From positions 1 through 62,136 of the forward strand of contig JAQWWZ010000044.1 of NCBI GenBank assembly GCA_029254745.1: a DNA stretch of 62,136 nucleotides. The letters are read 5' to 3'. The notes beneath the pieces were generated by a model. It saw only the letters and a program-made list of their open reading frames with translations, was not told where the DNA came from and searched no databases. Below are positions 36,882 to 45,912 of this stretch, in pieces; position 1 is the first letter of the stretch, and each line of letters opens with the position of its first letter. Made by a program: the position numbers and the translations under genes. Origin of the DNA: Opitutales bacterium (GTDB lineage: Bacteria > Verrucomicrobiota > Verrucomicrobiia > Opitutales > Seribacteraceae).

Positions 36882-38297
36882 ATGGAGCAAATCATAAACA
36901 CTAAAGCATTCTTCCAAAACAAGGAAATTCTAATCCTAGAAGACGATCATTTCCTCGCAAAACGATTGGTAGCTAAATTCGAAAATTATGAAGCAGAAGT
37001 TACCTCATGCTCCACCTTGGAGGATGCTCGAAATGCACTTGAAAATCTTACTTTTGATTTTGCTTTATTTGACCTCAACCTTCCGGATGGAGAAAGCCTT
37101 GATCTTCTTCGTAAAAAAAGAGTACCCAGCAACACATTACTGATCTTAATGACCGCGGAGGGAGGTATTACTTCAGCGGTGGAAGCAATGCGGCTTGGGG
37201 CAGTCGATTACTTAAGTAAACCTTTTGACATCGATGAAATTCCGCTTCTTTTTCTCAAATGTGACCGGCAGCGCAAAAATCAACGCCTTATCCAACACAC
37301 ATTTGAGAAGCGAAAACAAAAAACAGCTAATTTATTTTTTAAAGGTTCTTTCAAAGAAGACCTACAGCAACTTACAAAAATCACAGAGGTCGATCAAAGA
37401 TTACAAACCAACCTCCCCCCTCTTTTGATTGGTGGCCCAACTGGATCCGGAAAATCAACCTACGCCAGATGGGTTCACGACCATGGTCCCCGCCATAATT
37501 CAGCTTTTGTCGCGATCAACTGCTCTGCCATCCCGCATAGCTTGATAGAGTCTGAACTTTTTGGGCATGAGAAAGGTGCTTTTACGGATGCCAAAAATTC
37601 CCGCATAGGGCTTTTTGAAGCAGCCGACAATGGTACGCTCTTCTTGGATGAGGTCGCTAGCCTTTCCCTTCCCGCACAAGCTAAAGTTTTGCTCGCAATA
37701 GAGAACGGGATTATTCGGCGATTAGGTGGAACCAAGGAAATTAATGTTGATGTCAGAATTATCGCCGCGGCGAATCAAGACCTCAGGCAAATGATAGATG
37801 AAAAACAATTCAGAGAAGATCTATTCCATAGGCTTGATCTGCTCAGAATCAATATCCCCCCACTAAATACAAGGGGAAAAGATATAATAGCTCTCGCCTC
37901 ATATTTCCTCCAAGCTCTTTGTAAAAAATACAAAATTTGTTCCTCTCAATTGTCCAAACAAAGTGAAGTCCAACTTCTAACTCATCAATGGACTGGCAAT
38001 GCCCGGGAATTAATTCACGAACTCGAGCGAAGTTTGATTATGAGCGGGAAAGGGGAGCCTCTGGAAATTTCAGCTTCTCGAAAACATTCTAATGGGCCTG
38101 TAACAAAGCCAGAGAGCAATGATTGGCTCAATCCATCTTTTTCATTCCCGACTGATGGATTCCAGTTGGAGAAAGAAATGATTCGAATGCTTGAGCTGGG
38201 AATTAAGCAGGCAAACGGCAATATTTCGGAAGCCGCCCGACTTTTAGGTGTCCCACGAGACTACATTCGTTACAGGCTACAAAAACAAGGTAAATAA
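36882..38297 (+). CDS. NtrC-family sigma-54-dependent response regulator
   Basis: The 471-aa protein has a receiver domain with the phospho-acceptor D64 in FDLNLPDG and K113 in LSKPFD. An AAA+ domain follows with Walker A GGPTGSGKS (184-192), Walker B GTLFLDE and arginine-finger region FREDLFHRLDLLRINIP. The C-terminal Fis-type helix-turn-helix (ISEAARLLGVPRDYIRYRL) binds enhancers. The sigma-54 contact loop reads GAFTDA in place of GAFTGA. It should activate sigma-54 promoters when phosphorylated, probably by the histidine kinase at 40634-41980. It is divergent from the amidase gene. Confidence 0.93.
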   Translation: MEQIINTKAFFQNKEILILEDDHFLAKRLVAKFENYEAEVTSCSTLEDARNALENLTFDFALFDLNLPDGESLDLLRKKRVPSNTLLILMTAEGGITSAVEAMRLGAVDYLSKPFDIDEIPLLFLKCDRQRKNQRLIQHTFEKRKQKTANLFFKGSFKEDLQQLTKITEVDQRLQTNLPPLLIGGPTGSGKSTYARWVHDHGPRHNSAFVAINCSAIPHSLIESELFGHEKGAFTDAKNSRIGLFEAADNGTLFLDEVASLSLPAQAKVLLAIENGIIRRLGGTKEINVDVRIIAAANQDLRQMIDEKQFREDLFHRLDLLRINIPPLNTRGKDIIALASYFLQALCKKYKICSSQLSKQSEVQLLTHQWTGNARELIHELERSLIMSGKGEPLEISASRKHSNGPVTKPESNDWLNPSFSFPTDGFQLEKEMIRMLELGIKQANGNISEAARLLGVPRDYIRYRLQKQGK

Positions 38298-38302
38298 ATT
38301 CC

Positions 38303-38348
38303 GGGGATTATTCCCCAAACTAACAAGTTTAATTGTGAATTATTCCCC
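38303..38348 (+). promoter_or_regulatory. paired 12-mers, candidate enhancer sites for the regulator
   Basis: GGATTATTCCCC (38305-38316) and GAATTATTCCCC (38337-38348) match at 11 of 12 bases and are 32 bp apart, close to three helical turns. The first is part of a palindrome, GGGGATTATTCCCC. They lie about 75-120 bp upstream of a sigma-54-like promoter, the usual geometry for NtrC-type activator sites. Spacing and identity are read from the sequence; binding is inference. Confidence 0.45.
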
Positions 38349-38421
38349 TAAATGTCTCCAAGAGATTTACCGGCAAATAATTAAGTTACTGCAAAACAAC
38401 AACTTAAGATAAATTAAGCCT

Positions 38422-38438
38422 TTGGCATAGTTTATGAT
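38422..38438 (+). promoter_or_regulatory. weak sigma-54-like promoter before the coiled-coil gene
   Basis: TTGGCATAGTTTATGAT fits the spacing of TGGCAC-N5-TTGCW with GG at 38424-38425 and the -12 pair 12 bases later, but that pair is GA instead of GC. A start about 12 bases on would give a short leader to the ATG at 38476. TATGAT here could instead be a sigma-70 -10 box, although no good -35 is seen. Confidence 0.3.
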
Positions 38439-38475
38439 ATAAGTACTGTAACATTTATAAACACGATTACATTAT

Positions 38476-39369
38476 ATGAAAAAATTAATTATACTCTTAC
38501 TCACCGCCAACTTATGCTTTTCTTGGACACCCGCACAGGACAATTCCTCTGTAGAGAAAGCAAAGGTTTTCCCTGCACATTGGGGGAAAACACCAAATAT
38601 TCAAACTCAAGACTTTGTGGATCTTCCAAAAGGGTTTGGGAAAGGAAGCTCTACACTGAAACACTGGATCAATGGTAACCTAAGGAAAGATTTCGCCGAT
38701 CAACCTAAAATGCTTTCCGAGAGAGAAAAATTGTATCCAAAAATAGTAGAAGCAGAAGTCATGTCGGCCGTAAAAGACGGTACAATTTCGAAAGAAGATG
38801 CCCGAAAGAAACTTAATTCATTACGTGAAGAAATGGCCAAGAAAGGTAACTTCAAAAGACCTCAGCGCGCTCCAAAACCTGAGCTATCAAGTGAAGTGAA
38901 AGAAAAAATTGAGGCGGTGAAAGAGTTGGAGAAATCCATCCATACTGAAATGAAGGCTCGTGTGGAAGAACTCGGAAAAGATGCATCCAGGGAAGAAATC
39001 AAATCCACAGTGGAATCTTTTAAGGAAACCAACAAAGATCGATTTAAAGAGATCAAAGAAGCACACTCATCCATTCGTCAAGACCTAGAAGCCAACCGGC
39101 CCGCAAAGCCAGAAAGACCGGAGCTTAACGAAGATCTGAAGGTAAAAGTTGAAGCTCTACAGGCTAAAAGAAAAGAAATGCACGAAGCTCACAAAGAACT
39201 TCACCAAAACCTTAAAGATGCTTCAAAAGAAGATCGAAAGGTTATGATTGCGGACTTCAAAGAAACCAACAAAGAAAAGCACCAGGAGATAAAAGCCCAA
39301 GCCAAGCAAGTAAAAGAAGGAATCAGAGAACTTGTTGAAACAGAAGCTACCCGTACATCTGACCTCTAA
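38476..39369 (+). CDS. secreted coiled-coil protein with a duplicated 70-residue module
   Basis: The 297-aa product has a signal peptide (MKKLIILLLTANLCFSW, to about residue 20), a short N-terminal block with FVDLPKGFGKGSSTLKHWIN, and then nearly all helix, rich in Glu, Lys and Ala. Residues 136-204 and 216-285 are copies of one module: each contains KDAS, then E-E/D, FKETNK and E-I-K at matching positions, separated by a Pro-rich hinge (ANRPAKPERP). No family is recognised. It may be a periplasmic or surface fibre or chaperone-like protein. It lies between the regulator and the kinase and ends at a strong terminator. Confidence 0.8.
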   Translation: MKKLIILLLTANLCFSWTPAQDNSSVEKAKVFPAHWGKTPNIQTQDFVDLPKGFGKGSSTLKHWINGNLRKDFADQPKMLSEREKLYPKIVEAEVMSAVKDGTISKEDARKKLNSLREEMAKKGNFKRPQRAPKPELSSEVKEKIEAVKELEKSIHTEMKARVEELGKDASREEIKSTVESFKETNKDRFKEIKEAHSSIRQDLEANRPAKPERPELNEDLKVKVEALQAKRKEMHEAHKELHQNLKDASKEDRKVMIADFKETNKEKHQEIKAQAKQVKEGIRELVETEATRTSDL

Positions 39370-39408: not shown

Positions 39409-39438
39409 GCGGGATGACCAAGGTCATCCCGCTTTTTT
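39409..39438 (+). terminator. strong Rho-independent terminator after the coiled-coil gene
   Basis: GCGGGATGACC and GGTCATCCCGC form a perfect 11-bp stem with an AA loop, followed by six T bases. It lies 40 bases after the stop codon and 21 bases before the next gene, so that gene depends on readthrough or its own promoter. Confidence 0.93.
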
Positions 39439-39459: not shown

Positions 39460-40629
39460 TTGCCTTATTCTTATAACATAAAACCTGTACTCTTACTCTC
39501 TCTACACCTTACCCTAACGTTTTTTTTAGAGGCAAAAACCTCAAGCGACAGTGTAACCGACGAAGAACTCAGAGAGATGTTGTTTGGAGAAGCGACCTCT
39601 GGTATCTTGAAACCTAAAGCGAGATGGGTCCCATCTTCCACAATCGAATTAGGTGTAGGATATTCAGATAATCCGTTGTACGCTCCATTTGTAAGAGAAG
39701 ACACAGCCTATGTTGAAGTTTCGAGCGAAGTCTTTTTGATGAGAGAGGGGAACACAGAGTACTTCACCTATTTTTACTTATTTGGGGAGGGCAAAAGGTT
39801 TGAAACTTTCTCAGATAATAAGGAAGCTGCCCTATTACTCGGGCAATTTGAACATGCCTACACCCCAAAGAATTCAAGCCACAGCTATGGTTTTCGCTTT
39901 CGACACACCTACTACGATCAGGGCTTTGATTTTTCTGAACTTGGCCTCCCCTACCGGATGTCGGTATCCTCCAACAAAACAGAGTGGATTCCATACCTAA
40001 GCCACAGGTTTTCCCCACAAACCACTGGAATCATAAGCCTGAGTAAAGGGTTTGAAAACTACAGAAAAATCACGGACGATAACCGGGATAGAAAGCTCTC
40101 GATAACCTTGCAGGGTAATGGCTTGTTGGGAGCATGGAAATTATTCGGTGAAATCGATAAGAAAAAATACAAAGAACGCCAGCGACGCAATGGAGATGGA
40201 AGTCTTATTTCGGCCATTCCCGTAGAAACATTGAAGAAAAGTGTTTCCTTTAAAATCGTTAAAGCTTTTAAGCCTGTTTCCCTAGGTGATTCTACTGCAA
40301 AACTTCAATGGTCCTGGCTTAAGGATGGAGCGGGTGGTTACTATGATTATAAAAAAATTGGGCTTAGCCTCGAGCAGGAGTTTAAATTATCTCCATATAC
40401 CGTCACCGCATCATTGAGCGGGACCGACACAAAATACGATACCCGCAAAATTGATACGAATAAGATTTTCGAACGACAAAGCTTGAAATATAGCACATCA
40501 ATCACTCGGATTTTAGGTGAAAAAACAAAAGTCTATCTAAAATGGTCCAGAGAAGAAGATTTCTCGAACGCCAGAGACTATGAATATTACTCAAACTTTT
40601 GGTCCCTCGGACTAACCTGGGAAATCTAA
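39460..40629 (+). CDS. outer-membrane beta-barrel candidate
   Basis: The 389-aa protein has a leader (LLLSLHLTLTFFLEA) followed by many alternating-residue beta strands with aromatic girdles, such as SSTIELGVGYSDNPLYAP, TAKLQWSWLKDGAGGYY and SNFWSLGLTWEI at the very end. This pattern, with no helices, suggests a barrel of about 14-18 strands, though no named family is recognised. The start is a TTG with a fair ribosome site (AAAGG) 9 bases before it; no early ATG exists. It ends 4 bases before the histidine kinase gene, so the two are surely co-transcribed. Confidence 0.7.
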   Translation: MPYSYNIKPVLLLSLHLTLTFFLEAKTSSDSVTDEELREMLFGEATSGILKPKARWVPSSTIELGVGYSDNPLYAPFVREDTAYVEVSSEVFLMREGNTEYFTYFYLFGEGKRFETFSDNKEAALLLGQFEHAYTPKNSSHSYGFRFRHTYYDQGFDFSELGLPYRMSVSSNKTEWIPYLSHRFSPQTTGIISLSKGFENYRKITDDNRDRKLSITLQGNGLLGAWKLFGEIDKKKYKERQRRNGDGSLISAIPVETLKKSVSFKIVKAFKPVSLGDSTAKLQWSWLKDGAGGYYDYKKIGLSLEQEFKLSPYTVTASLSGTDTKYDTRKIDTNKIFERQSLKYSTSITRILGEKTKVYLKWSREEDFSNARDYEYYSNFWSLGLTWEI

Positions 40630-40633
40630 CCTT

Positions 40634-41980
40634 ATGAATATTCGAAAAGAATGGTTAGGTTTTGCCCTTAGTTTGTTACTTCTCTTTTTTCTGTCAGCGG
40701 TCCTCCTTTTATTTTCCCGTAAAAACTTTCATGTTCAGGTTCTCGACTCTCAAGGTAATCTGATTAGTGCTGAAATAACCACTCTGGTCGAAGAAAATGA
40801 ATATAAGCTCCTAGAAAGAGATATTACTTTTGTGGATTTGGGGGTTCCTGAAATGGCATACGATCAAGAGGAACTACTTTCATATACCGCTCTCGACATA
40901 TTGACTCTGCCAAAAGTAATCCAAGTCCTTGCCTACGACACCGATGGCAACCCGATTCCTTTAGTAACAGGAACGATGTCAAATCCAGTTGCCAAAAGAT
41001 TTTCATTATCCGAGAGAAACACATCTACTTTTTTCAACCATAACCAAGGAGACTCCTTTGCTCTTTTTTTTAGAATAAATACACTCGATGGAACCTACAT
41101 TTTTGAAGTTCAGTTAGAGGAAGACTTTATTCTAAATGAGTGGGAGACGATTGACAGGCAACTTCTTGAACAAGGATTGCTTATTATCTTAACCGGCATT
41201 CTCGTTCTTTATGTCATATTTCATTTCATGACTAAACACATTCAAGAAAGAGAGAGAAAACTAGAACAACAAAATACCCTTCTGCAAAAGACGAATCAAA
41301 AACTGGCACAAGCTTATAAAACCGTGAGCCTGGGAGCCTTAACGGGACACCTGATGCACTCTTTAAAAACACCGCTCACTTCCCTTCAAATCCTTGCAAG
41401 GGAAGCGGATAAAGATAGCAATGTAGATCCGAAGGAGTTAGTTGATGTGCATAGCCAAATTAAAGACTTAGTATCCCAATCCTTACTCTCCCTTCAAGAG
41501 ATCGAGAGTAAGAACCAAGCTTATGAGATGACAATTACAGAGATTTTTGCGCTCGTTATTGCCAGAACCTCAAACATTTCCAGAAGAGGAAATATATGTA
41601 TTAAAGATAGCAAAGATAAAGAGGTAACCTTGGACAACCTCTGCAGTTCTTTGCTATCCCCGATTCTAATCTCTTTACTCGAAAACGCGTTTCAATCCCG
41701 AAAAGATACCGAAGTAACTTTAAGCGTAGAAAAAGATAACCATTCATTGTTGATACATGTGGTAGATACCAGTGTTGGAATCCCTGAATCTGAGCAAGAA
41801 TTTTTATTTGACCCGACTAAAAGCCGCAAACCAAACGGAACCGGGCTCGGGCTAGCTCTCGCACAGCAATTGGCTCTGAGTATGGGTGCGAAAATTAAAC
41901 TCATTCATAGCGATAATGATGGTTCACACTTTACCATTTTTTTAAACCTTGAGCCTGATCAAGTTGAAAGTGTGAATTAG
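40634..41980 (+). CDS. membrane sensor histidine kinase
   Basis: The 448-aa protein has two membrane helices (about residues 9-28 and 180-199) enclosing a roughly 150-residue periplasmic sensor region of no recognised family. A coiled linker leads to the H-box MHSLKTPLTSLQ (H242). The ATP-binding domain has the N-box SLLENAFQS (N351), VVDTSVGIPE, an F-box LFDPTKSRKPNG and GTGLGLALAQ. It should phosphorylate the sigma-54 regulator at 36882. Being 4 bases after the barrel gene hints that the sensed signal comes from the outer membrane or the surface; that is inference. Confidence 0.92.
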   Translation: MNIRKEWLGFALSLLLLFFLSAVLLLFSRKNFHVQVLDSQGNLISAEITTLVEENEYKLLERDITFVDLGVPEMAYDQEELLSYTALDILTLPKVIQVLAYDTDGNPIPLVTGTMSNPVAKRFSLSERNTSTFFNHNQGDSFALFFRINTLDGTYIFEVQLEEDFILNEWETIDRQLLEQGLLIILTGILVLYVIFHFMTKHIQERERKLEQQNTLLQKTNQKLAQAYKTVSLGALTGHLMHSLKTPLTSLQILAREADKDSNVDPKELVDVHSQIKDLVSQSLLSLQEIESKNQAYEMTITEIFALVIARTSNISRRGNICIKDSKDKEVTLDNLCSSLLSPILISLLENAFQSRKDTEVTLSVEKDNHSLLIHVVDTSVGIPESEQEFLFDPTKSRKPNGTGLGLALAQQLALSMGAKIKLIHSDNDGSHFTIFLNLEPDQVESVN

Positions 41981-42015: not shown

Positions 42016-45000
42016 GTGAGATACTTTTTATTCCTGTTTCTTTTCCCTACGCTGTTAACTGGATCTCTTCACGCAAACTCAGGTAACCCACCGAATGGAT
42101 ACCATGGTGAAACTTCAAGTTGCAAATCTTGCCACAGCACTTATGCCCTAAATTCTGGTGTCGGAAGCTTAGTAATATCCGGGATGCCAACGGGCTATGT
42201 ACCAGGTCAAACTTATAACCTCTCCCTTACCCTGTCGGATCCCTCCTCTACTGCCTACGGCTTTCAACTTACAGCCAAAGCAAATGCAAGCACAATCGGC
42301 ACATTAACCACTGTATCAAGTGGCATGGGGCTTGAATCTGGTGCCATAGAGCATCGGGGTGCTTCCGCTTCCGGAACCTGGGATTTTCAATGGACAGCAC
42401 CAGTAACGGACGATGGCGATGTTTCATTTTATGCTTCAGGAGTGGCGACCAACGGAAACGGCATGAGAACGGGAGATTATGTTTACACGACCGTACAAAA
42501 CCTTGCCGCCAATTCATTTTCTCACGCCTCAATGGAATGGAATGCAAGCACCAGTGGGGTGGTTTATTCTTCCCCTGCTATTAGTGCGGACGGTAGCGTG
42601 TATGTTGGTTCCAATGATAATAAATTACATGCGTTTAATTCAGATGGGAGCATAAAGTGGACATTCCAGGCTGGCAACTGGGTCGATTCATCACCGGCAA
42701 TCGCTGCGGATGGCACCATCTATGTTGGGTCCTGGGATAATAAGCTTTATGCACTCAACCCCGAAGACGGATCAAAAATATGGGAATATGAAACCAACAG
42801 CTATGTAATCGCAAGCCCAGCCGTTGGGGCAGATGGAAAAATTTATGTGGGTTCAAAAGACTCAATTTTCTACGCCCTAGAAAGTAATGGTTCTGTTGCA
42901 TGGGAATATTTTGCGGGGCAACCAATTTCATCCTCTGCAGCCCTTGGCCAGGATGGAACCATTTATTTTGGGGATGACAATGGAACCCTTCATGCAGTTG
43001 CACCAGATGGTTCAAGTAAGTGGGTTTACCAGGTCGATAGCGTTACTGATTCAAACAGCTCGATTCTCTCTTCTCCTGCTATTGATTTGTCAGGTAATAT
43101 TTATTTTGGCTCTGGAAATGGATATTGCTACTCGATTGCCGACCAAGAATCCAATGCTTCCTTAAATTGGAGCTATCTCACTGGTGATCGGGTTGATGCC
43201 TCTCCTGTGCTGGGTATGAATGATGAAATATTTTTTGCCTCCAGGGATGGCTATTTTCGCTCTTTATCTACAATTTCCGGGATTCTTAACTGGGAGGAAT
43301 TTGTGGGAGATGTTTTTTACAGCAGCCCAGTTGTCGATCTCAATGGCAGAGTTTATACCATTGGATACACAGGTGGAGGCGAAAATCATTTATTCGTATT
43401 TGAAGCCAACGGCACAAAAGCGTGGGATACAAATGCCACCGACAGCCCATTTGGAATTAACGGTATTGTGGATTCCTCCCTCGTTCTTAGCGATACGGGA
43501 AAGTTATACTATGGATGCTATGATGGGAATCTTTATTGCTTGGATGTAGGAGTTGGACCCGCGACATCTGACTGGCCAATGTTTCAAAGAAATGAACGAA
43601 GGGACGGAGCTTGGCCAAGTCATACCCTAGAAATTCTGGTATCGGCAGCGGAAGGTGAAGTATCGGGAGCAGGTATCTACAACCCAGGTTCCTCGATTAC
43701 AATATCCGCCACTCCACAAGCCGGATATTCCTTTGCCTATTGGACTGGCAGCGGTCCGACCGACCCAAACGCATCAACCACGACCATTTCCATGACCGAA
43801 GACCGAAATCTAACCGCAGTTTTCCAGCAAAACTCTTACCAGCTCTCAGCGTCCATAGTGCCAGCAAACTCTGCAGAGATCACTGGTACAGGAGCCTACA
43901 CTTATGGAGAATTGGCCACCCTTTCTTTTTCATCTATTACCTCAGGATATGCGTTTGAGTCTTGGGCTGGAGATGCAACAGGAAGTGATACCCCGCTTTC
44001 CCTCATAGTTACAGAAAGCACAACGGTAACGGCAAACTTCGGTTTAATTGACCTTGAGCTTAATGTAACTGCTGATCCCGGTGGCTCGGTTACCGGAGGA
44101 GGGCTAATTCAATACGGCACGACTTCTCCAATTTCGGCGACTCCAGAGGAAGGCTATAGTTTTATGGGATGGTCAGGCGCAGGCATTAACGATTCCATCT
44201 CTGCATCGACAACAGTCGACATGACAGAAGCAAGAGAAGTACATGCCAATTTCTCCTTAAATTCTTACACCTTGTCAGTTTCTACAATAGGCGAAGGAAC
44301 CGCGACTGGCACCGGTACATATAGTCATGGGGATCTGGTAGATATTACTGCATCTCCTGCGACTGAATATTCATTTGGTGGATGGGATGGAAATGGAGTA
44401 ACAGATGCAAATGCACTGTCAACTTCGGTACGCATGACAGCGAACACATCGGTGTCGGCTTTATTTGAACTGAATGCCTATAACCTTTCGCTTTCAGCTG
44501 GTACCGGTGGAACGGTTAGCGAATCGGGAACTCATCCTTTTGGCAGCATTGTGGCGATTGAGGCGGCTCCCAACCAAGGCTATTCTTTCGACTCATGGTT
44601 TGGTGGAACGGTGGAAAATGAAAACTCGCCCCAAACAAATGTAACGATCAACCAAAATATTGAGCTGAGTGCTCTTTTTGAGATCAATGAATACACACTC
44701 TCTGCAAGTACACCAACCGGGGGAATCATATCTGGCACAGGCCAATACTCATATGGGAAGACTGTAACCGTAAATGCAATACCCCAAAGCAATTATATTT
44801 TCTCTCATTGGATCGGTGAAAACTTGGAAGATATCAATGCCTCATCGACCAAGATCGTCGTGGATCAAAATTATGAAATTGCTGCAATCTTCGAAGAAAA
44901 ACCTCCTGAGCAAAAGTCACTGATTGTTCTTTCCAGTCCAAGTAATGCGGGCACGACAACCGGTTCAGGTGCCTTCATTGTTGGTGCTCTTGCTGCCATA

Positions 45001-45912
45001 ACCGCTACCCCTTTGGAAGGCTATCAATTTTCTTACTGGGAAGGTCAAAGTATTTCGGACTCAAATGCATCAACTACTTCAGTTCTTTTAGAAAGTGACC
45101 AAAATATTACTGCCCACTTCAGTGCCCTTTCCTACACAATAGGCATTGCCTCTAATCTAGGAGGAGCGGTAACAGGAGAAGGCCTTTACAGTCATGGAGC
45201 CACAGTTTCCATCTCTGCTTTGGCAGAAGATGGGTATCAGTTTAGCCAATGGGTTGGATCTGATATCCCCAACCCACTCATTGCCTCCTTTTCTATAGAA
45301 GCCACCCAAGACTTAAACCTGACCGCAACCTTCTCCCTTACTGAATTTACCGTTGTGCTCACACAGAATATTGAGGGAGGGCAAGTCCAGGGAGGAGGAA
45401 CCTTTACCCATGGATCCACGGCTGTACTGGAAGCAACTCCCTCAAATGGCTACCAGTTCTTGAACTGGTCAAAAGACGGCAGTATTTTAGGCACAGATAA
45501 AGCCTTGGATGTGCTTATATTTGCGGACTCTAATATAACTGCAAATTTTGAGCAGCTTGTGGCTACAAAAATAGAAGGCGTAAATTCTTTGGGTGATGAG
45601 TGGTATGGGGCAGATTGGCTTGGATTTTTTTACTCCACAGGCACAGACTGGTCCTATCACCTAGATCTTGGTTGGCTCTATATGGTCCCTAACGAGGACG
45701 GAAGTATGTGGGCATGGTCCCCACAACTAGACTGGTTGTGGTTATCACCCACGATATTCCCCCAAAGCTTGGCTTGGTCTAGAGATGAGTCAGACTGGCT
45801 TTTCTTTTCTTTCCAAAGCGCAGGTGGTGCACAAATTTACCATTATAAGAATGAAAGTTGGAGTTCTTTTGATCCGAATGCTCAAGTGAGCTTGGAGGAT
45901 TCTATTTTTTAA
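42016..45912 (+). CDS. 1298-aa exported protein: CxxCH domain, PQQ-like propeller, nine InlB-like repeats
   Basis: A signal peptide (MRYFLFLFLFPTLLTG, to about residue 20) precedes a domain with C36-K-S-C39-H40, the c-type heme signature, in a region resembling the choice-of-anchor V domain (GYHGETSSCKSCHS). Residues about 175-525 are PQQ-like propeller blades (for example SSPAISADGSVYVGS, SSPAIAADGTIYVGS). Residues 538-1178 are nine copies of a roughly 70-aa divergent InlB B-repeat. The last 110 residues are Trp- and Tyr-rich (WYGADWLGFFY, DLGWLYMVP, LDWLWLSP), a terminus I associate with Verrucomicrobia surface proteins. Start GTG, 35 bases after the kinase gene. It is probably a surface adhesin or binding protein. 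Confidence 0.85.
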   Translation: MRYFLFLFLFPTLLTGSLHANSGNPPNGYHGETSSCKSCHSTYALNSGVGSLVISGMPTGYVPGQTYNLSLTLSDPSSTAYGFQLTAKANASTIGTLTTVSSGMGLESGAIEHRGASASGTWDFQWTAPVTDDGDVSFYASGVATNGNGMRTGDYVYTTVQNLAANSFSHASMEWNASTSGVVYSSPAISADGSVYVGSNDNKLHAFNSDGSIKWTFQAGNWVDSSPAIAADGTIYVGSWDNKLYALNPEDGSKIWEYETNSYVIASPAVGADGKIYVGSKDSIFYALESNGSVAWEYFAGQPISSSAALGQDGTIYFGDDNGTLHAVAPDGSSKWVYQVDSVTDSNSSILSSPAIDLSGNIYFGSGNGYCYSIADQESNASLNWSYLTGDRVDASPVLGMNDEIFFASRDGYFRSLSTISGILNWEEFVGDVFYSSPVVDLNGRVYTIGYTGGGENHLFVFEANGTKAWDTNATDSPFGINGIVDSSLVLSDTGKLYYGCYDGNLYCLDVGVGPATSDWPMFQRNERRDGAWPSHTLEILVSAAEGEVSGAGIYNPGSSITISATPQAGYSFAYWTGSGPTDPNASTTTISMTEDRNLTAVFQQNSYQLSASIVPANSAEITGTGAYTYGELATLSFSSITSGYAFESWAGDATGSDTPLSLIVTESTTVTANFGLIDLELNVTADPGGSVTGGGLIQYGTTSPISATPEEGYSFMGWSGAGINDSISASTTVDMTEAREVHANFSLNSYTLSVSTIGEGTATGTGTYSHGDLVDITASPATEYSFGGWDGNGVTDANALSTSVRMTANTSVSALFELNAYNLSLSAGTGGTVSESGTHPFGSIVAIEAAPNQGYSFDSWFGGTVENENSPQTNVTINQNIELSALFEINEYTLSASTPTGGIISGTGQYSYGKTVTVNAIPQSNYIFSHWIGENLEDINASSTKIVVDQNYEIAAIFEEKPPEQKSLIVLSSPSNAGTTTGSGAFIVGALAAITATPLEGYQFSYWEGQSISDSNASTTSVLLESDQNITAHFSALSYTIGIASNLGGAVTGEGLYSHGATVSISALAEDGYQFSQWVGSDIPNPLIASFSIEATQDLNLTATFSLTEFTVVLTQNIEGGQVQGGGTFTHGSTAVLEATPSNGYQFLNWSKDGSILGTDKALDVLIFADSNITANFEQLVATKIEGVNSLGDEWYGADWLGFFYSTGTDWSYHLDLGWLYMVPNEDGSMWAWSPQLDWLWLSPTIFPQSLAWSRDESDWLFFSFQSAGGAQIYHYKNESWSSFDPNAQVSLEDSIF
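43627..45552 (+). repeat. nine InlB-like repeats within the 1298-aa gene
   Basis: Each unit follows the pattern L-x-x-G-G-x-V-x-G-x-G-x-Y-x-x-G-x-x-x-x-I-x-A-x-P, then Y-x-F-x-x-W-x-G, N-A-S-T-T and a closing V-x-A-x-F. The nine copies are diverged at the DNA level, so this is an old protein repeat and not a recent tandem array. Limits are approximate. Confidence 0.85.

Follow-up and report, generated by a model that had tools for sequence, protein, structure and literature searches.

The 62,136-nucleotide stretch of DNA analyzed here, hereafter the window, carries a pair of palindromic sites and a sigma-54-like promoter through which the adjoining two-component regulator very probably switches on a cluster of cell-surface genes. 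How this element is built, that it is conserved and that it goes with the target genes is shown by the genomes compared. We consider it highly probable that the locus is made of an NtrC-type enhancer and a sigma-54 promoter, with regulator, kinase, DNA looping and operon working as proposed below. The apparently new part of the finding is a clade-wide shift in the base at -12 of the promoter. The window is contig C34 of genome G000 (2.45 Mb, 96.5% complete), whose near relatives are uncultured marine-type Opitutales/Verrucomicrobia.

Anatomy of the locus

The genes and signals of the locus are the following:

36882-38297, + strand: NtrC-type response regulator (receiver PF00072, AAA+ PF00158, PF25601, Fis-type HTH PF02954)
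38303-38316, no strand: distal half of the proposed enhancer, palindrome GGGGATTATTCCCC; perfect match to GGGRAWWWWTYCCC; kept across the family
38335-38348, no strand: proximal half of the proposed enhancer, imperfect palindrome GTGAATTATTCCCC; one mismatch to GGGRAWWWWTYCCC; kept across the family
38422-38428, + strand: -24 element TTGGCAT, GG at 38424-38425; TTGGCAC-like in orthologs
38434-38438, + strand: -12 element ATGAT, with A at -12 (38437), where the usual base is C; TG as in all orthologs
38449, + strand: predicted transcription start, 12 bases beyond the -12 base, from the GG-N10-GN geometry
38476-39369, + strand: target gene, secreted Lys/Glu-rich protein, probably coiled-coil, ending in VETEATRTSDL; no firm Pfam family
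39409-39432, + strand: hairpin resembling an intrinsic terminator, after the target and before the gene that follows it; similar hairpin in 19/22 ortholog loci scanned
39460-40629, + strand: predicted outer-membrane beta-barrel protein; no Pfam match, low-confidence all-beta model (pLDDT 57); syntenic
40634-41980, + strand: sensor histidine kinase, taken to be the regulator's partner (HATPase_c; weak, sub-cut-off AtoS/ZraS-like NCBIfam scores); syntenic
42016-45912, + strand: large protein, secreted, in which Pfam finds a PQQ-type beta-propeller and nine InlB-like repeats; syntenic

The regulator combines an AAA+ domain (PF00158, 1.3e-58) with a Fis-type HTH (PF02954, 7.6e-7), and the target gene begins with an ATG at 38476. 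The pairing of the kinase with the regulator, the membrane location and the coiled coil are assigned from position and by eye.

A first-pass annotation had noticed two 12-mers 32 bp apart, directly after the regulator gene. We located them as GGATTATTCCCC (38305-38316) and GAATTATTCCCC (38337-38348), offset by 32 bp, the distal palindrome starting 5 bases past the stop codon of the regulator (stop at 38297). One of the 12-mers had been placed within a palindrome, which is right for that one, but both in fact lie within palindromes. The dyad centres are 32 bp from each other and 114 and 82 bp upstream of the -24 GG (75 to 120 bp or so from the promoter in the first-pass annotation); two helically phased dyads lie upstream at looping distance, as in an NtrC-type enhancer.

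The TTGGCAT/ATGAT element, already described as sigma-54-like, corresponds to TTGGCATAGTTTATGAT at 38422-38438 and is the window's sole exact match to its promoter pattern. GG at -24, TG at -14/-13 and N10 from the GG to the -13 G are all in place, and the base at -12 is A rather than C. Because C at -12 is absent in the window and in most loci of the genus to which the window belongs and of one sister genus (together g1+g2), we regard this as a variant sigma-54 promoter. The first-pass annotation saw the GA at -12 as the weak point; the GA is real, but it is no argument against the sigma-54 reading, because GC, GA, GT and GG all occur at this place in orthologous promoters.

Rarity of the paired sites

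Taken singly, the elements (the 12-mer, the promoter pattern, lone palindromes) are no rarer than in shuffled sequences, and an exact repeated 10-mer turned up in 667/20000 shuffles of the intergenic region. The paired arrangement is another matter: two dyads 31 to 34 bp apart with at most one arm mismatch appeared in 0/20000 shuffles, and in 2/20000 when up to three mismatches were allowed. A genome scan for paired sites, which had been suggested from the start, found the window pair to be the only one at spacing 32 or 33 with at most three mismatches in the 2.45 Mb of G000, and the reversed-pattern control for the pair matched nowhere (0 times) in the 42 genomes of the family. Single GGGRAWWWWTYCCC-like palindromes with at most two mismatches number 616 in G000, against 239 for the reversed pattern; as a target finder this count was discarded as too loose, the excess probably being affected by composition or else reflecting more single sites.

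Conservation in the family and beyond

Regulator orthologs (E<=1e-90) were found in 32/42 family genomes, and 31 loci were examined, namely a first set of 30 plus that of G024, reached through its pair-scan locus; the locus of G010, which ends near a contig edge, was left out. The genomes compared are mostly drafts. A -24/-12 element stands ahead of the same secreted-protein gene in 31/31 of these loci, and the site pair is present in 30/31, with a dyad spacing of 31 to 33 bp; G025 has a single site, in the proximal position. Mean pairwise ungapped identity over 30 loci (G025 left out) is 0.78 and 0.73 for the two 16-mer sites and 0.61 for the promoter; for non-element DNA it is 0.29 (spacer) and 0.31 (gap) in the same loci.

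This conservation bears on the possibility that the palindromes bind the regulator while a sigma-70 promoter drives transcription, the TTGGCA motif being incidental. The window alone lends itself to such a reading, as its TATGAT in the -12 region resembles a -10 box and its -12 is not GC. However, the TTGGCAC -24 motif, the N5 and the TG are kept in orthologs, several of which have the canonical ATGCA, a sigma-70 promoter scan yields no more than shuffles do, and the regulator retains its sigma-54 activation domain, so that we judge a sigma-70 promoter very unlikely.

The distance from the second dyad to the GG is 91 to 95 bp in 27/30 loci, and 82 to 83 bp in the window, G038 and G029, which is one helical turn less. 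Indels of 10 to 11 bp are reported to be tolerated in synthetic and Vibrio sigma-54 enhancers (PMC4740811). The sites could also be operators at which some other transcription factor acts on the operon, as a repressor or modulator, the adjoining regulator being matched to them by position only. Against this, the pair co-occurs with the regulator and the -24/-12 element and keeps an enhancer-like distance, including the one-turn change, and we give an unrelated factor scarcely any credence.

Beyond the family, regulator orthologs (E<=1e-105) occur in 57/223 genomes searched. Among the 39 non-family genomes with an ortholog, 18 loci were viewed (17 plus L196), of which five have site(s) and promoter, two of these five with only one clear site; spacing is 43 to 44 bp, or four turns, in 3/5. 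Two further outgroup loci were cut off near the regulator end, and reading the sequences of the remaining ones revealed no such pair.

Copies of the element away from the regulator

Sites and promoter motif directly follow the regulator in 27/30 of the first loci. In G037, G040 and G041 the element is elsewhere, each time directly ahead of the target gene; in G037 a second target-like gene now lies between regulator and element. Extra pairs, each accompanied by a promoter-like element at an equal distance, stand ahead of a TRTSDL-ending target paralog in G019 and G028 (the -24 being degenerate in the G028 paralog, TTGTCAT), an EF-hand protein gene in G004, and in G017, with no regulator gene beside it, a masked stretch whose gene is unreadable. 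Weak pairs also precede paralogs in G002, G004 and G006. The element tracks the target rather than the regulator, and pairs elsewhere are mostly found ahead of target paralogs. G000 itself has one target gene and one site pair. A further pair, on contig C179 of G025, is intragenic and promoterless and was taken as chance.

That the palindromes might be hairpins that end the regulator transcript or serve its processing, as their start just past the stop codon and their capacity to pair could suggest, is practically negligible, since the + strand has no T-run after them, their spacing is fixed, and in G037, G040, G041 and G017 the pair has no regulator gene next to it, and it recurs before paralogs. 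The initial recognition of an NtrC-type enhancer layout is supported by the domains of the regulator, the presence of one rpoN, the recurrence of the layout in all but one of the family loci and the target-linked copies.

The base at -12 across the clade

Over 26 operon promoters of g1+g2, the -12 base is A in 11, C in 6, T in 6 and G in 3, that is, not C in 20/26. C is found in 3/3 loci of the sister genus g3, 2/2 of the sister genus g4 and 5/5 outgroups (four by pattern count, G070 read from sequence), or 10/10 with promoter read. T at -14, which the promoter pattern did not demand, is present in 30/30 loci; the GG and the -13 G were demanded by the pattern, which in part accounts for their being invariant. 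For comparison, C stands at -12 in 38/42 intergenic sense sites of E. coli, exceptions including hydN (TGA) and the psp promoters (TGT) (PMC4591121, Table 1); the C frequencies of g1+g2 and E. coli differ with a Fisher p of 1.8e-8, relatedness being ignored. On a quick regulator tree of 35 rows, with some weak branches, there are 3 C/non-C changes and 10 base changes; on the simplest reading, a single gain of non-C at the root of g1+g2 was followed by two reversions to C. In g1+g2 the requirement of sigma-54 promoters for C at -12 appears to have been lost.

A second, sigma-54-like promoter, TTGGCACAAGGTATGCA, is found on contig C27 of G000 (L134, around 8087), divergent from a GSFTGA regulator; its orthologs have TGA or TGT. 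It was recognized in 7/14 loci scanned, its -12 base being C in G000 and T, A, T, A, A and T in G033, G031, G039, G020, G018 and G016, respectively. Because this unrelated promoter varies too, the freedom at -12 extends beyond one promoter and one activator. We tentatively propose, with a little less than even confidence, that in one marine Opitutales clade the sigma-54 polymerase no longer reads the C at -12; the -24 GG and -14/-13 TG are kept, while any of A, T, G and C can come to follow them, and this at promoters of different activators (GAFTDA and GSFTGA), which would place the change in the holoenzyme or in a shared melting mechanism and not in one activator.

Other accounts of the shift were discarded. 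A misplaced -12 would put the GC at another distance, and GC was found at N7-N13 in none of the 24 non-C promoters (24/24). The GAFTDA loop of the regulator is ruled out as the cause because outgroups with GAFTDA retain GC. As for a cause in RpoN, the equivalents of E378 and R383 fall in the HETT[V/I]SRA helix (PMC5505868), which is the same in 32/32 proteins; past residue 330, ten fixed differences split the two clades, none of them at these equivalents, and no RpoN residue was found that accounts for the shift. The pattern TTGGCACNNNNNATGNTA, run on 42 genomes, gave 17 matches against 9 for the control, five being, on our reading, known promoters, and was uninformative.

Regulator and proposed mechanism

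The sigma-54 contact loop of the regulator is GAFTDA, not the consensus GAFTGA, in 30/30 family orthologs read, and mostly GAFTDA in outgroups, with GSFTDA in two. GAFTDA is listed among loop variants held to retain activity (PMC4641369); NorR G266D, which is the same change, is reported to be active, to escape its regulatory domain and to be constitutive (PMC2941729). In G000, rpoN is single copy, and its product retains the DNA-contacting HTH. A second, divergent RpoN (33% identity) is encoded in one genome of the genus, at G022:C11:5879-7372.

For phosphorelay, regulator binding, start site and read-through, we infer the following course. Upon a signal, the histidine kinase (40634-41980) would phosphorylate the regulator (36882-38297), dimers of which would bind both palindromes on the same DNA face, three turns apart. 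The regulator oligomer would then loop over some 80 to 115 bp to RNA polymerase-sigma-54 at 38422-38438 and open the complex using ATP, transcription of the secreted-protein gene beginning near 38449. Read-through past the hairpin would reach the genes for the beta-barrel, the kinase and the large surface protein, and would therefore place the kinase within its own control loop. The terminator-like hairpin behind the target gene, seen in the window and in most ortholog loci, suggests that more of the target than of the kinase is produced.

Relation to known systems

In E. coli glnAp2, the NtrC site centres are near -140 and -108, 32 bp apart. The window likewise has two dyads three turns apart, about 110 to 140 bp upstream of a sigma-54 promoter (at approximately -139 and -107), but its site is GGGRAWWWWTYCCC and it would control a surface operon instead of nitrogen assimilation; the regulator fails the NtrC equivalog of NCBIfam (299.6 bits, cut-off 558.6). 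An NtrC-type regulator and a membrane kinase beside the target recall ZraSR/zraP, in which ZraR drives a small periplasmic protein, and AtoSC. However, the regulator scores 218 against a cut-off of 760 for ZraR and 284.5 against 714 for AtoC, and the target has no ZraP-type Pfam match. PrsK/PrsR of PEP-CTERM systems also link a sigma-54 regulator and a kinase to surface proteins, but the PrsR score is 285.8 bits (cut-off 502.6) and the PrsK score 60.4 (cut-off 300). DVU2106 of Desulfovibrio vulgaris is a natural GAFTDA enhancer-binding protein with predicted sigma-54 targets, but is single-component and regulates another operon (PMC4641369).

A search of the open PMC literature found nothing on this regulon or on a relaxed -12 in Verrucomicrobia. 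For what seems to be a new surface-protein regulon of marine bacteria, the present analysis provides the site motif, the target genes and a probable kinase, and orthologous promoters with all four bases, next to sister genera with C, offer a natural test of the role of the -12 base. Scans that demand GAFTGA would miss this regulon; PMC12316311 kept only GAFTGA-bearing sequences.

Proteins encoded by the operon

The family keeps its genes in the order regulator, target, beta-barrel, kinase and large PQQ/InlB-repeat protein, an arrangement found in part in other families of Opitutales. That sigma-54 governs surface functions has been described before (PMC3162934). Pfam and structure work on the target and the barrel gained little. 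The VETEATRTSDL C-terminus of the target is nearly invariant in it and its paralogs and looks like a sorting or processing tag, and an N-terminal HWGxPP...GSSTLAxW module is found again in other, larger family proteins. The large secreted protein has a Trp/Tyr-rich module at its C-terminus.
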